Assembly: GCF_014696065.1 (NCBI RefSeq)
Contig: NZ_JACJPL010000019.1
Span: 1 to 38,209 of the forward strand
Direction of reading: 5' to 3'
From: Leptolyngbya sp. FACHB-261
GTDB lineage: Bacteria > Cyanobacteriota > Cyanobacteriia > FACHB-261
Length of the DNA: 38,209 bases
The notes beneath the pieces were generated by a model that did no database searches, was not told the origin of the DNA, and saw nothing but the letters and a program-made list of their open reading frames with translations. Positions 9,177 to 33,488 of the stretch are shown in pieces (positions within the stretch are counted from its first letter, which is position 1; the number at the start of each line of letters is the position of its first letter). The translations under genes and the position numbers were made by a program.

Positions 9177-9518
9177 CTAGGCACCTACTTGCCAGCCTTT
9201 GGCAGCTTGGCTAAGGACATAGGCGGCTACACTCTCAATCTGGTCTTCGTCTAGCCGATCTTTGAAGGCAGGCATGGCATTTTTGCCATTGCGCACCTGG
9301 TAGGTCACTTGCTCGTGGGTATTCACACCATACTCATCGAGCGCTGACTGCTTGAGCGTCTTGTTTGACAGCAGGACGTTGCCACCACCAATGTGACAGG
9401 CTGCACAATTATTGGCAAAAATCTGAGCGCCCAATTCCAGATCCAACTCGGCCCAAGCGGGACCACTGGGTAGCAGGAGAACTAGAACCAGACAGAACAG
9501 AAATACGTGCCTCAGCAT
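9177..9518 (-). CDS. petJ: Cytochrome c6 (PetJ)
   Basis: This 113-residue precursor is a soluble lumenal electron carrier between cytochrome b6f and photosystem I, or a c6-like paralogue. It has a signal peptide (MLRHVF..., cleavage probably after AWA, residue 23), the haem motif CAACH (C38, C41, H42) near the mature start, and the axial methionine M82 in NAMPAFKDRL. The ending ...VAAYVLSQAAKGW is characteristic of cytochrome c6. The frame is open up to 9665, but the family start and signal peptide fix the ATG at 9518. That ATG lies 4 bp past the psbV2 stop, so the two are probably translated from one mRNA. Confidence 0.93.
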   Translation of the reverse strand: MLRHVFLFCLVLVLLLPSGPAWAELDLELGAQIFANNCAACHIGGGNVLLSNKTLKQSALDEYGVNTHEQVTYQVRNGKNAMPAFKDRLDEDQIESVAAYVLSQAAKGWQVGA

Positions 9519-9522
9519 CGTC

Positions 9523-10038
9523 TCACTTATCCGAAAAGATGGCGTTTCCCCAACCGGGAGCCTCTTGCGCAGCCCGCAAAATAAATGCAGCCAGATTAGT
9601 GACCTGAGCGTCTGAAAGCCAAGACTCAGGCACCTCGCGGCAAGCGTAGCTCTCCTCGGTGCCATCGTAGCTCATGGGTAACCTAATAAAGGTTACGAGG
9701 CTCTTGAGCGTGTCCCGGGGTGGAGTTGCAATCTTAAGGTCTGCCAGAGAAAGAGAGACGATGGGATTGGGTAGAGTGTTGCCACCGACGTGACAGTTCA
9801 GACAGTTTTGTTCGAAGAGCTGCTTACCCTGCACAAAATCAGCAACAGCGAAAGTTTGCTCAGCACCGCTGCCATCTAAAGGCAGGGTGACTGGCTCTTT
9901 CACTTTTAGATACTGAGCTACATAAGGATCAACCCGAGGGGCAGCCGAAGCTTCGGGTAGACCGAGCAGCAGCGCCCCTAAAACAACCCCTAGCAGCAGT
10001 AGCCAGCTAGCGAAACGGTTAGTAATAGATCTTGCCAC
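9523..10038 (-). CDS. psbV2: PsbV2-type cytochrome c-550 paralogue
   Basis: The product (171 residues from a GTG at 10038) has a signal peptide ending near EASA, the PsbV-like start APRVDPYVAQYLKVKEPVTL, and haem motif CLNCH (C79, C82, H83). It then has the PsbV-type helix text TPPRDTLKSLVTFIRLPMSYDG. Where PsbV has its second axial histidine, this protein has YACREVPESW, putting C133 at or next to the ligand position. I recall that PsbV2 of Thermosynechococcus has unusual His/Cys haem ligation. The GTG overlaps the psbV stop by 20 bp. The frame extends to 10188, but that part lies inside psbV and looks non-coding. Gene order psbV-psbV2-petJ is also what I remember for Thermosynechococcus. 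Confidence 0.85.
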   Translation of the reverse strand: MARSITNRFASWLLLLGVVLGALLLGLPEASAAPRVDPYVAQYLKVKEPVTLPLDGSGAEQTFAVADFVQGKQLFEQNCLNCHVGGNTLPNPIVSLSLADLKIATPPRDTLKSLVTFIRLPMSYDGTEESYACREVPESWLSDAQVTNLAAFILRAAQEAPGWGNAIFSDK

Positions 10039-10510
10039 CGCCCCACTTGCTGCCAACGATTTTGGGCTGGAGCAGGATGTGACCAGCAATGGCATAGAGA
10101 TCTGATTCAGAAAGGTTTGCCATCTTGGGATACGCATCGGTGCTCTTAAGGCTGGGGTGGCTGTCAGCAATGGACTCCGCACCATCATAGGTGGTGGGAT
10201 TCTTCATGTAGTCAACCAGCCCTTCGATGTTGTTGCGAGGGGGAAAAGCACCCTCCAGCGCTTCAGGATCCAAACCGACGTTTTGGTTGGTTTTGGTCAC
10301 GCCGCCAGCATGGCAGATAGCGCAGTTGTCATTGAATAGGCGCTTGCCATCTCTGACCTGCTTAGGCGTGAGGACCGTAGTTTGGGTCTCGTTGAGCTGG
10401 ACGGTACGAGTCGCCTCGTCGATACCAGCTGCACTGACTGCTGGCGTGGTTAGCAGGTTGAGGGCAACGCAAACAATGGCTACTACCAGCCATAGGTATC
10501 GCTTTAACAT
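10019..10510 (-). CDS. psbV: Cytochrome c-550, photosystem II extrinsic protein (PsbV)
   Basis: The 163-residue precursor is the lumenal photosystem II subunit that stabilises the oxygen-evolving manganese cluster. Its signal peptide ends near AVSA (residue 27). The mature part has haem motif CAICH (C63, C66, H67), a second axial histidine H118 in ADSHPSLKSTDAYPKM, and the typical C-terminus ending in ...KWGGGKIYY. The ATG at 10510 has a strong AGGAGA ribosome site six bases upstream and is preferred over the two upstream Met codons. It is preceded at 45 bp by a small conserved gene and followed by psbV2 and petJ. Confidence 0.96.
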   Translation of the reverse strand: MLKRYLWLVVAIVCVALNLLTTPAVSAAGIDEATRTVQLNETQTTVLTPKQVRDGKRLFNDNCAICHAGGVTKTNQNVGLDPEALEGAFPPRNNIEGLVDYMKNPTTYDGAESIADSHPSLKSTDAYPKMANLSESDLYAIAGHILLQPKIVGSKWGGGKIYY

Positions 10511-10554
10511 GGTTCTCCTCATGTTCGGACTCAAAAGAAATAACACAGCAAACA

Positions 10555-10761
10555 CTAGGCCGACCCTTCAGCAGGATCGGATGAAGTAGCCTCACGCTTT
10601 CGCAGCACGGTCAGGATGACTTCCTTTGCATCTTCAAGCGCTAAACGAGTTTGAGCGTCGCGATAGGCGATACCCAAGTCGTCGCAGAGGCGAGTTATCT
10701 CCTCGGTGGTGAGGTTGTAGCTCTCTGCTAGCTCCTCGATGGAGAGGTCAGCGAAGCCCAT
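10555..10761 (-). CDS. Small conserved cyanobacterial protein upstream of psbV
   Basis: The 68-residue acidic, helical protein begins MGFADLSIEELAESYNLTTE and continues with ITRLCDDLGIAYRDAQTRLALEDAKEVIL. I remember near-identical small proteins in cyanobacteria, often labelled as related to translation initiation factor because the start resembles a small helical IF2-N-like fold. That label is not evidence of function. It ends 45 bp before psbV on the same strand and is probably the first gene of the cytochrome operon. Confidence 0.75.
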   Translation of the reverse strand: MGFADLSIEELAESYNLTTEEITRLCDDLGIAYRDAQTRLALEDAKEVILTVLRKREATSSDPAEGSA

Positions 10762-11821: not shown

Positions 11822-12583
11822 ATGGACCCTTACTTGGAGGGATATCTCTGGCCTGACGTTTATAATGCGTTGGCGAGCAAGATCCGGCAGCAGTTGGCTC
11901 CCAAGCTACGTCCTCGCTATACAGCCCGTCTTGAGATTTACGTGGTTGAGGATAGTTTCCCAGAAAGCGAGGTTGGCATTTTGTACCCGGATGTCGAAGT
12001 CATGCAGATTCGGCAACGGCAAGATGCAAATGCGAACATGCCCGCTGCTAGCGGCGCTGGAGCCGTATCTGTTATGCCCGCTCCATTGACGGTACTCGTT
12101 GTTCGGCCTGTATCTGTACGGCTAACTAATGTCGAGATTCGGGATACGGCTCAAAATGTTCTGGTGACTTGCATCGAAATTCTCTCACCTGTGAACAAGC
12201 GCGGCTCAAGTTTAGCGGGCTACCGGCAGAAACGCCAGCGTCTTTATCAGACAGGAATTCATCTGATTGAGTTGGATTTTCTGCGTCGAGGCACACGACC
12301 TTTTGCGCATGCAAGGTTGCCGGAGGTACCTTATGCTATTGCCCTTACTCGGGCTCAATCGGGTCTGATGAATATCTGGCCATTGAGCCTGCAAGATTCT
12401 CTGCCCACTATTCCAATTCCATTGCGCTCTCCAGAGCCTGATGTCGCGCTAGATCTCTCTATTGCTATGCAAGAAATCTACGATCAGGCGGCCTACGACT
12501 TGTCGATTAACTATAGTGAGCCACCGTTACCAGCATTATCTGAAGCAGATAAACTTTGGCTAGAGTCTCTAATGGCTAAATAG
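11822..12583 (+). CDS. DUF4058 family protein
   Basis: The 253-residue product shows DUF4058 text: MDPYLEG..LWPDVYNALASKIRQQLAPKLRPRY, then ILYPDVEVMQI, VEIRD, EILSPVNKR, YRQKRQRL and LIELDFLRRGTRP. The function of the family is unknown; it is frequent in cyanobacteria and Planctomycetes. Family members normally begin MPSPFPGMDPYLE. Here the seven codons before the ATG read IPSPFPG, with ATA (11801-11803) where the family start ATG would be, and no other start upstream before an in-frame stop at 11768. Translation probably uses the ATG at 11822, losing the short conserved leader. Confidence 0.85.
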   Translation: MDPYLEGYLWPDVYNALASKIRQQLAPKLRPRYTARLEIYVVEDSFPESEVGILYPDVEVMQIRQRQDANANMPAASGAGAVSVMPAPLTVLVVRPVSVRLTNVEIRDTAQNVLVTCIEILSPVNKRGSSLAGYRQKRQRLYQTGIHLIELDFLRRGTRPFAHARLPEVPYAIALTRAQSGLMNIWPLSLQDSLPTIPIPLRSPEPDVALDLSIAMQEIYDQAAYDLSINYSEPPLPALSEADKLWLESLMAK

Positions 12584-12955: not shown

Positions 12956-13522
12956 TCAAGACAACTGCAACTCAAAACCGGGCAGAACTTCTTCTCCTAA
13001 GAGAGTGGCTGGTAGAGCAATGACCTGTACTGCTTGAGCAGGCCGATAGATTTCGGCTTGCCTGTTCTGAGGATCAATAAGCCAGCCCAGGCGCAAGCCG
13101 TTGTCTAGATATTCCTGCATCTTTTCCTGGAGAGGTTTAAGGCGATCTGTGCGAGACCTCAGCTCAATGACAAAATCTGGGCAGAGGGGAGGGAAGCCCT
13201 GTTGCTCTTTTGGCGTGAGAGCTTGCCAACGTTCTAGGCGCACCCAAGCAACATCAGGGGAGCGGTCTGCCCCATTGGGCAAGCTAAAGATGGTCGAGGA
13301 GCTGAAGACCTTGCCTAAGCGTATCTCACGGTTCCAGATCTCCAAATCAGTAATCAGAGCAGCCTCTTGGTTGCCCCCTTCTCCCCCAACAGGTGACATG
13401 ATCAGCAGTTCCCCTCTTGCTGTCCGTTCAAGTTTCAAATCCCGATTCGCCTGACAGAGCAGGTAGAACTGCTCGCGGGTCAACTGGATAATGGGTTCCA
13501 GATTCAGCACAAATGAACTCAT
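12956..13522 (-). CDS. Uma2 family (DUF820) endonuclease-like protein
   Basis: The 188-residue protein is a full-length member of the Uma2/DUF820 family, a PD-(D/E)XK nuclease-like fold that is greatly expanded in cyanobacteria. Visible family text includes LTREQFYLLCQANRDLKLER, GELLIMSPVGGEGGNQEAAL, RSPDVAWVRLERW, CPDFVIELRSRTDRLKPLQE and MQEYLDNGLRLGWLIDPQNR. The D of SPDVAW and the E of FVIELRS sit where catalytic acids are expected. Cellular function is not established. The stop is 30 bp before the ATG of the broken Uma2 copy, so the pair was probably an operon made by duplication. Confidence 0.87.
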   Translation of the reverse strand: MSSFVLNLEPIIQLTREQFYLLCQANRDLKLERTARGELLIMSPVGGEGGNQEAALITDLEIWNREIRLGKVFSSSTIFSLPNGADRSPDVAWVRLERWQALTPKEQQGFPPLCPDFVIELRSRTDRLKPLQEKMQEYLDNGLRLGWLIDPQNRQAEIYRPAQAVQVIALPATLLGEEVLPGFELQLS

Positions 13523-13801
13523 TCGTTGTTCCCCAATCGGCAGTGACTAAAAATCGTGATTGGTATCTTGCAAAGATGCTCTCTCTAGTTGCAAGCATAG
13601 CCGCAGGTCAGCGCCCTCTTGCATCAATGCTTAGCTACTGAAGTCGCAGCGGCACAAACACAATTCACCGACGCAGGTTCAAGCCGTTGATGTTCGCAAC
13701 TCTAAGCAGGCAGACTTGGCCTATATTGGTGCGGTTTTGACCACCTAAATTTACAAGTATTTTGCAAGAGGTTTCTTCTTGAAACGCTCTAAGTCTAAGC
13801 A
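13523..13801. other. Intergenic stretch between the Uma2 gene and the 21-bp repeats
   Basis: I see no gene here on either strand. The sequence holds several CTTGCA/TTGCAAG words like those at the low-coordinate end of the neighbouring repeat array, and 13781-13801 weakly fits one more repeat unit. The upstream control region of the minus-strand Uma2 gene must lie at its left end, but no convincing promoter is visible. Confidence 0.4.
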
Positions 13802-14032
13802 AGCTTGAGGTGCTCTCTTGCAAGCTCTACTCGGATGGCTACAACCTCTAGCCTTATCTCCACAGGTTGACGCCGCTTGCCTAGAGGTTTGAAGTGGTTC
13901 TCTACAAGTTCACGCTGCTTGCCTACAGGCCCACACCGGATACCTACAAGCTTCTGCCAGACCTCCACGCGTTTACGCCCTAGCCCCACACGTTTACGCC
14001 AAATAGCTACAAGTTTTGTGAATCGCTTGGCC
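13802..14032. repeat. Eleven degenerate 21-bp tandem repeats
   Basis: The stretch splits without gaps into eleven units of exactly 21 bases starting at 13802, 13823, 13844, 13865, 13886, 13907, 13928, 13949, 13970, 13991 and 14012. Most units end in CCTACA, CTACA or CCACA and begin with AG, GG or CG followed by TT and often ACGC. The best pair, at 13970 and 13991, share the opening CGTTTACGCC. Because 21 is a multiple of three, frames stay open on both strands. The minus-strand frame 13795-14091 reads as seven-residue repeats (KRVGLGR, KRVEVWQ, KLVGIRC). There are no spacers, so it is not CRISPR. It ends 110 bp before an unrecognised gene. Confidence 0.8.
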
Positions 14033-14141
14033 GCTTGGGGAACCTTGGCAACAGGTTCAGTTGCAATTCTTACAACCTTAAGTAAGGCCACTGCAATTGC
14101 ACTTGCTCAGCTCTACCCCTGTTTCAAAGAGGTGCATTGTT

Positions 14142-14822
14142 ATGTCTCAACCCAGTTTTGGCACTGCTGAAGAAGTCGTTATCGAAGATGCCAAGCTCAA
14201 ACTGGATTTAGCCCGCCAGCGACTTGCTGACCTTGTCACCTTTGGCATCACCAGGCAGTGGCTTGACCAACTTCATAGCAACATCCAGGCTTACGAAGCC
14301 CTTGCGCCAGATAGCACCTTACTGGCCATGCAAAAAAGCCTTACCGCCGACAAAGACGATACCCTCAAGCAGATTGAGCGTTGGGGCAGTTTCCTGCGCG
14401 ACCGTTGCAAATTTGCCTTTGGTAGTGGTCCCCGCAATCCCTTTCCGCTCAGTAGCTTCCGCAGTGCCATCACCAACGAATCCAAGATGCTGCAAGTGCT
14501 ACCCAGTCTAGTCGCCCTGGCTAACCAGTACGACACAGCCCTCAGCAGCTTCGGCCAACCGAGCGACTATGCTAGCCAAGGCCAACTGCTGCGGGACCGA
14601 CTTGACCAACTCAACCGCCAACAAGAAATGGCTAAACGCGAACGCAAAATTGCCACAAGCAATCGTCGTCAGGCGGCCAAAACTGTCTATGACCAACTGC
14701 GCCATCTCAACGAAGTAGCCCGCGCTGTCTACCGCGACCAGCCCACCCAGCGCGACCTGTTTCGGGGACTGATTCAGCGCACCACTACGACCGTTGCCTT
14801 AGCCAGTGCACCCGCAGATTGA
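14142..14822 (+). CDS. Hypothetical protein with coiled-coil region, 226 aa
   Basis: I do not recognise this family. The protein starts MSQPSFGTAEEVVIEDAKLK, is largely helical, and has a heptad-like Arg/Gln-rich stretch at about residues 145-195 (RDRLDQLNRQQEMAKRERK onward), likely coiled coil. It contains the central motif FLRDRCKFAFGSGPRNPF. There is no signal peptide or membrane span. The ATG at 14142 with AGAGGTG upstream is preferred over 14097. The text is rich in Gln, Thr and Asp, and it has its own strong terminator. The neighbouring 21-bp repeats and decayed genes mark the area as accessory. A structural or nucleic-acid-associated role is possible, but nothing proves it. Confidence 0.65.
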   Translation: MSQPSFGTAEEVVIEDAKLKLDLARQRLADLVTFGITRQWLDQLHSNIQAYEALAPDSTLLAMQKSLTADKDDTLKQIERWGSFLRDRCKFAFGSGPRNPFPLSSFRSAITNESKMLQVLPSLVALANQYDTALSSFGQPSDYASQGQLLRDRLDQLNRQQEMAKRERKIATSNRRQAAKTVYDQLRHLNEVARAVYRDQPTQRDLFRGLIQRTTTTVALASAPAD

Positions 14823-32654: not shown

Positions 32655-33488
32655 CTAGCGAACCTGACTGACGACCGAGGTAGTTAGGCGGGGCTGAAAC
32701 CAGTCCTCTGGGAAGACGGAGTAGTCGCTCGTTGACTCCGTTGTTGACTCCGTTGTTGACTCCGTTGCAGGGCTGATTGCAGTACGACTAGTTCCACCTA
32801 GAGCGATGGGAGATTGAATTTGCTTGACGGGTCTGGCTGTGGGCGTAACGGGTGCCGTGGTTGCGGGCTGTTGCTGTAAATTGTGCAGTCGAGCTTCGGT
32901 CTCAGCAAGTTGGCTTTCCAGCAGCCTTAATTCCGCTAAACGCACTTGACGGTTGGCCTCCAGGTAGCTAGTCTCCTGGCGAATGCGCTGCATTCTGGCT
33001 TGATGGTCAGCCGTACGTCCAGGTTGATAAACAACACCAAAGTACAGCATTGTATTTTCTGCATTGACTGGGTTAATTGCCGCCGAAAGATTCAAACCAA
33101 AGTCATTTTCTGTATTGGGGTAAGCCGGAGAGGGAGCAGCGATGGGTAAATGAATGTTGTTGGACACGGCTGTACTATTTGTCTGATTACCCACTCGCAC
33201 TGTTTGGCTGTTGGCCTGGCTATTCGTTTGCTGATTGGTTTGATGATTAGTTTGCTGGTTGGTTTGATGGTTTAGCTGGTTGTTGAGCTGCATATTCTGG
33301 TTGCTAAGCTGCTGTTGCATGTTGTTGTGGGAGTTCGGTCCCACGTTCATCAACTGGCCGCTAGTTTGCGTTTGTGCCTGCGCCTTAGGCATGGACATTT
33401 CTACTGCAACCAAGAGCAAGAGGGCCGCAGTTCCAGTCTTTGCAACTGTCTTAACAAGGCTAATAGAACCAATTTTGTGCTGACTCAT
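32655..33488 (-). CDS. Exported Asn/Gln-rich protein, unknown family
   Basis: From the ATG at 33488 the product is 277 residues. A signal peptide covers about 1-37 (TGTAALLLLVAVEMSMP, ending AQA). An Asn/Gln-rich low-complexity region follows (about 45-100, with NQQTNHQTNQQTN repeats). A compact segment reads FGLNLSAAINPVNAENTMLY and FGVVYQPGRTADHQARMQRI, then a coiled-coil helix (about 165-200) and a Thr/Ser/Pro tail. The tail repeat TTESTTEST is encoded by three perfect 12-bp repeats, GTTGACTCCGTT on the plus strand at 32731-32766. I do not know the family. Secretion or a cell-surface site is likely from the signal peptide. The frame extends to 33536, but the chosen Met gives a proper signal peptide. 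Confidence 0.65.
   Translation of the reverse strand: MSQHKIGSISLVKTVAKTGTAALLLLVAVEMSMPKAQAQTQTSGQLMNVGPNSHNNMQQQLSNQNMQLNNQLNHQTNQQTNHQTNQQTNSQANSQTVRVGNQTNSTAVSNNIHLPIAAPSPAYPNTENDFGLNLSAAINPVNAENTMLYFGVVYQPGRTADHQARMQRIRQETSYLEANRQVRLAELRLLESQLAETEARLHNLQQQPATTAPVTPTARPVKQIQSPIALGGTSRTAISPATESTTESTTESTSDYSVFPEDWFQPRLTTSVVSQVR
32731..32766. repeat. Three perfect 12-bp tandem repeats inside a coding region
   Basis: GTTGACTCCGTT occurs three times in a row without mismatch (32731, 32743, 32755). It lies in frame inside the Asn/Gln-rich exported gene and adds TEST-type residues. Length variation between strains would keep the frame. Confidence 0.9.

Follow-up and report, generated by a model that had tools for sequence, protein, structure and literature searches.

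The window analysed here is the whole of a 38,209-bp contig from the 6.95-Mb genome of Leptolyngbya sp. FACHB-261, a genome for which no close relative was present among those compared. It harbors a tandem array which separates a Uma2-encoding gene from a gene for a small helical protein, designated F1 (Table 1). Because the Uma2 gene reads away from the array, the latter lies in the upstream region common to both genes. The initial annotation had placed a pair of Uma2 genes beside the array; one of these was retained, whereas the open reading frame (ORF) at positions 11822 to 12583 was found to specify a DUF4058 protein. Genes encoding a ParA-, ParM- or TubZ-type NTPase were not observed to adjoin the array, the neighbors being Uma2, DUF4058 and photolyase genes. 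Further along the window, at positions 9177 to 10555, three successive and partly overlapping minus-strand ORFs all match cytochrome c-550 or cytochrome c domains.

Table 1. Features of the array locus, with positions given in window coordinates
Feature	Position	Strand	Basis or remark
Uma2 gene (PF05685, putative restriction endonuclease)	12956-13522	-	Pfam E 6e-45
98-codon open frame across the array, GTG start	13795-14091	-	Judged not to be a gene (tests on 57 arrays)
21-bp array, 14 consecutive positions, ~13 recognisable units	13802-14095		Self-match peak and unit scores
Drifted unit within the array, register kept	14012-14032		Score of 0.29 versus background of 0.25
Leader, from array to start codon	14096-14141	+	Sequence, motif scan
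F1 gene (226 aa, pI 9.4, predicted all-helical)	14142-14822	+	Distant relative of NF052641

Eleven 21-bp units had originally been described at positions 13802 to 14032, and this description was upheld. The lag-21 self-match across this interval is 0.514, with values of 0.487 and 0.506 at lags of 42 and 63, respectively, and background values at lags of 7 and 14, repetition thus being confined to 21 and its multiples. The top lag-21 stretch of the window begins at position 13786 (0.529, against a window mean of 0.267 and a standard deviation of 0.037) and represents the highest value in the window across all periods from 15 to 39. When scored against a leave-one-out consensus (background mean of 0.25, 99.9th percentile of 0.43), ten of the eleven units (13802 to 14011) attained 0.41 to 0.54, the remaining one, at 14012, having drifted. 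Three further weak units in register (0.39, 0.43 and 0.42) remain recognisable up to position 14095, which leaves 46 bp between the end of the array and the start codon at 14142. The rough consensus of the units on the plus strand is AGTTNNNGCNNNNTNCCTACA, and the intervening leader carries a Shine-Dalgarno-like GAGGTG at positions 14129 to 14134. A repeat finder reporting no significant 21-bp period had been put forward as grounds for dismissing the array; TRF is indeed silent on it at a minimum score of 30, because its units are too diverged, yet the period is real by self-match. Elsewhere in the window, TRF reports 12-bp and 24-bp tandem repeats at positions 32731 to 32767 and 33222 to 33282.

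The F1 protein matches the NCBIfam model NF052641 (PQLLE family protein) with 42.5 bits (E 5.5e-11), through its C-terminal part only and below the curated cut-off of 80 bits. Four paralogs, with 53 to 58% identity, are encoded in the same genome, and hhalign comparison of the five proteins with 11 NF052641 members covered 195 columns (E 5e-5, probability 67%). Like the F1 protein itself, the paralogs match this family (best E of 5.5e-11). Its confident members possess upstream arrays, and the window branch is devoid of the C-terminal PQLLE motif. Upstream of the paralogs, a 21-bp period is obvious in three cases and weak in one or two, and the unit sequence is private to each array; one array repeats at 85 bp (4 x 21 + 1), a length which is incompatible with a reading frame. 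Of the 388 genomes in the class, 14 gave matches to NF052641 (one of these being weak and discounted), as did one further genome. In other cyanobacterial genera, most F1 genes are directly preceded by a 21-bp array, with differing unit sequences. Using a cut of 0.495 for period 21 within 650 bp upstream (the 98th percentile of control windows being ~0.50), 14 of 19 F1 loci scored at or above this value, among them a nearly perfect array (0.94, locus L022); another locus (L034) displays a repeat length of 41 bp, and the relatives L025, L026 and L042 have no clear array upstream. The suggested link between the array and the gene at 14142 is consequently strengthened by the recurrence of same-period arrays beside relatives of this gene. 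Many of the contigs carrying F1 loci end near the gene, as would be expected from repeats. Searches of plasmids, phages and viral contigs, and of genome contigs by peptide pattern, yielded no F1 relatives; neither a PDB relative nor a recognisable DNA-binding fold was found, and single-sequence structure prediction was poor (pLDDT of 47) and not usable. One genome contains fragmented copies of the PQLLE family (L120 to L122, L029, L035 and L038), among which a truncated gene keeps a clear upstream 21-bp array.

The notion that such arrays are tied exclusively to the PQLLE-like family was rejected, as many more of them came to light when 1.2 Mb of the FACHB-261 genome were scanned: 21 is the dominant period among non-coding arrays, with 14 such arrays having this period. 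These additional arrays led to the detection of two further small helical families, F2 (~120 aa) and F3 (~155 aa), whose genes several of the arrays directly adjoin. In two genomes without F1 to F3 (400 kb each, 800 kb in total), no true 21-bp array was detected, two non-coding hits of period 21 being discounted once confirmed as 6- to 7-bp simple repeats. No Pfam or NCBIfam model was found for F2 or F3, and no similarity was detected among the three families, which are all basic (pI of 9.4 for F1, with 9.9 and 8.6 for the other two). F2 is present in 86 and F3 in 81 of the 388 genomes, often in multiple copies, and 60 genomes contain both (Fisher p of 8e-32, uncorrected for phylogeny). The 0.495 threshold for period 21 upstream is reached by 18 of 30 F2 loci; higher-order repeats of 42, 63, 84 or 105 bp occur at other F2 loci, a 42-bp array beside F2 on plasmid pA of Kovacikia minuta CCNUW1 included, and some F2 relatives are without a clear array. 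Among 30 F3 loci from 30 genomes, the best period between 16 and 30 is exactly 21 in 28, with the array being located downstream of the gene in 26 and upstream in two (one of these having an array on either side), whereas F1 and F2 arrays lie upstream of their gene. The same period was thus recovered beside F1 relatives as well as F2 and F3 genes, and absence of the array from all relatives, which the initial annotation had named as a possible refutation, does not apply; its suggestion of selection on spacing is likewise favored by arrays of equal period accompanying three small-protein families.

The window's genome also contains arrays beside which no F1 to F3 gene was recognised, four on contig C31 (at 201872, 507623, 631198 and 647261) and three on contig C26 (at 539141, 555500 and 831970). 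Several F2 and orphan arrays of this genome adjoin TIR or STAND genes, and further partner families may therefore exist. A non-cyanobacterial F3 relative, with 40% identity over 76%, is located on the Candidatus Thiodictyon syntrophicum plasmid NZ_CP020371.1 (L166), where no clear array was apparent. Putative viral relatives of F2 (L163 to L165) were discarded, since the similarity is short and lies within phage tape-measure proteins, where the stretch GVASKFGKNSYQYQ is almost the same as the C-terminal motif of F2.

Comparison of orthologs indicates that the units turn over around a kept core. In the F2 orthologs L134, L135 and L136, TTGAATT is retained in nearly every unit and other positions are variable, the leader being conserved; turnover within the array is rapid between close relatives with near-identical leaders. 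Unit-number variation, for which a search of relatives had been suggested, was encountered in L155, which carries exactly one extra 21-bp unit compared to its orthologs. Motifs of F2 and F3 arrays are family specific across genera, in that the sharing of recurring 6-mers between genera amounts to 0.064 within F2 and 0.050 within F3, which is five to eight times the between-family level of 0.0075 to 0.0125 (permutation p of 0.002); such sharing was not found within F1 (0.0096). A leader motif, GGG[AC]A[CT]NCT, is located at -43 to -72 from the start codon in 7 of 19 F1, 5 of 30 F2 and 15 of 30 F3 loci, against a chance expectation of 0.0065 per 160 bp; the F1 and F2 counts are post hoc, as the motif was noticed in these loci, whereas the F3 loci were retrieved after its definition. 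This motif, commonly in the form GGGCAYTCT among relatives, is absent from the window leader and from those of the paralogs.

The genes located across the array from F3 are mostly defence-like. This far-side gene is codirectional in 23 of the 26 downstream cases, and Pfam assignments for 28 such neighbors comprise AAA_16 (7), NB-ARC (3), NACHT (2), MmeI (2), NNH1 (2) and NNH3 (2), in addition to SMEK, ResIII, ThiF, TIR and HSDR_N (1 each), with PADLOC recognising type IIG and type I restriction enzymes and a ThsB-like TIR protein. The list of the 25 commonest Pfam families of 28 random control genes includes none of these domains, and PADLOC hits to the same genes are only scattered. The neighbors of F1 and F2 are mixed and include three Uma2 genes, among them that of the window, whose product is a putative nuclease of uncertain role as regards classification as a defence neighbor.

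Taken together, these arrays constitute a recurring cyanobacterial module in which approximately 10 to 15 tandem sites, spaced two DNA turns apart, are located beside the gene of a small helical protein of basic pI and, in the most thoroughly sampled branch, next to antiviral-type genes as well; the window array, with its period of 21 and its distance of 46 bp from the F1 gene (within the limit of ~700 bp applied to such modules), is one example. The array probably functions as a protein-binding control region, which is the best supported of the three options originally offered, albeit still a putative role. More specifically, we propose, with roughly even confidence, that it represents a helically phased set of binding sites which is read by the adjacent protein and controls the neighboring genes. 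The array would be the cis-acting DNA half of the module, and the small basic protein, here F1, the other half. As 21 bp corresponds to two turns of B-DNA, all sites would face the same side of the helix, and the adjacent protein would most likely bind many units cooperatively, with the resulting nucleoprotein complex controlling the gene of the protein itself as well as the gene across the array. The latter is Uma2 in the window and, for F3 modules, usually a defence or conflict gene. Unit sequences which differ per locus would keep the modules separate. Binding, cooperativity and regulation of the neighbors are features that we infer, and several observations weigh against them: family-specific motifs could stem from a shared ancestry of the arrays; those of F3 are situated mostly downstream, those of F1 and F2 upstream; F1 displays no within-family motif sharing; the shared leader motif is missing at the window; three F1 and some F2 relatives are without a clear array, as several arrays of the window's genome are without a partner gene; and the protein has no recognised DNA-binding fold.

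It had also been suggested that the array constitutes a small repeat-protein gene, with the minus strand encoding heptapeptide repeats. The minus-strand frame of 98 codons does exist and is open, but the 57 arrays tested show no surplus of open frames (mean of 1.35 open frames per array versus 1.50, with a standard deviation of 0.13, following column permutation), and the proposed codon-level selection is not borne out, the contrast in codon-phase conservation being 0.236 versus an expected 0.269 (standard deviation of 0.017). Moreover, the arrays of some relatives have repeat lengths of 41, 43, 62 and 85 bp, which lie near multiples of 21 and suggest that what is preserved is the helical phase and not a reading frame. 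The coding explanation was ruled out by the open-frame and codon-phase tests, the window array is non-coding, and the likelihood of a heptapeptide protein is considered negligible. Activity as RNA, be it a transcribed leader or an intergenic transcript in which hairpins or protein-binding sites recur, appears very unlikely: although some F2 and F3 arrays (L123, L146, L154, L142 and L153) fold better than shuffled sequences (z of about -5 to -8), the window array does not (z of -0.05 and -1.14), most F1 arrays are likewise without a fold signal, no Rfam model exceeds its gathering score in the window, and double-stranded DNA offers a simpler account of a 21.0-bp spacing. RNA structure was thus rejected as a common feature, as were palindromic units, which were found in just 6 of 32 arrays. 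Long inverted repeats (CATTCATAAG ... CTTATGAATG) occur in some F2 arrays (L142, L146 and L153 to L155), whose folding is far stronger than that of shuffled sequences.

Foremost among the alternatives is a neutral one, namely that the arrays are functionless minisatellites which arise by replication slippage or unequal exchange and ride on mobile small-gene cassettes, their period of 21 having been set by a founder. Homogenisation of units inside a locus and their difference between loci would be explained in this manner, as would the higher-order repeats of 42, 63, 84 and 105 bp, the unit indel between orthologs, the existence of orphan arrays and the patchy distribution of the genes. A neutral repeat would, however, be expected to drift in length, and the survival of an exact 21-bp period through deep sequence drift, both in the window and across genera, therefore counts against this explanation, as do the pairing of arrays with three families without detected mutual similarity, the core kept in ortholog units and the family-specific motifs shared across genera; on balance, we regard it as unlikely, though deserving of serious consideration. 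A contingency (phase-variation) element, in which unit number would tune the adjacent conflict gene and thereby diversify the cells of a filament, is more improbable still. It is consistent with the unit-number difference between orthologs, with the fast within-array turnover in close relatives whose leaders are near-identical and with the position of F3 arrays between F3 and a defence-like gene, but the window units are far too diverged for frequent slippage at present, and a dedicated protein gene would be unnecessary.

The proposed protein-binding module bears comparison with several known systems. In the ParR-parC and omega-heptad systems, the gene for a small DNA-binding protein lies beside phased direct repeats, onto which the protein loads cooperatively and through which it regulates its own expression. 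The modules described here share with such plasmid partition centromeres the pairing of a small-protein gene with a helically phased direct-repeat array, but they are chromosomal and occur in many copies per genome, neither a partition NTPase nor a sequence relative was found, and binding is a property that we infer. Cyanobacterial STRR repeats are near-perfect 7-bp tandem units and, like the window array, are found in intergenic DNA, whereas lags of 7 and 14 are at background in the window. The BrickBuilt element of Porphyromonas gingivalis, as described in its abstract, is a minisatellite/MITE with 23-nt units and reported bidirectional promoter activity, and likewise a multicopy tandem array in intergenic DNA, made of short units without spacers; it consists of one unit family inside MITE ends in one species, and the abstract describes neither a partner protein family nor defence neighbors (PMC4596501). 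The arrays reported here, in contrast, have 21-bp units which differ at every locus and are paired with protein genes. The conflict systems of Kaur et al. (2020), involving STAND NTPases and effector-associated domains, feature the same kinds of neighboring genes in a filamentous-cyanobacterium setting, and a search of the text of that article for tandem repeats, direct repeats and intergenic arrays was negative (PMC7159879). Searches of the open-access literature covering the repeat itself, the name PQLLE and the combination of repeats with defence genes retrieved no match; on the scope of that literature, novelty is provisional.

It is possible, though we advance this only tentatively, that these loci represent an undescribed and widespread class of cyanobacterial module whose small helical protein reads the phased array belonging to it and thereby controls, silences or arms the neighboring defence genes, with private units permitting dozens of modules to coexist. 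If so, approximately one in five cyanobacterial genomes of the sample would hold a partnership between a DNA array and a protein, often in many copies, and the F3 modules, which front diverse antiviral-type genes, could represent a common control layer of immunity in filamentous cyanobacteria. Repeat finders would miss these arrays because drift affects their units but leaves the spacing intact.
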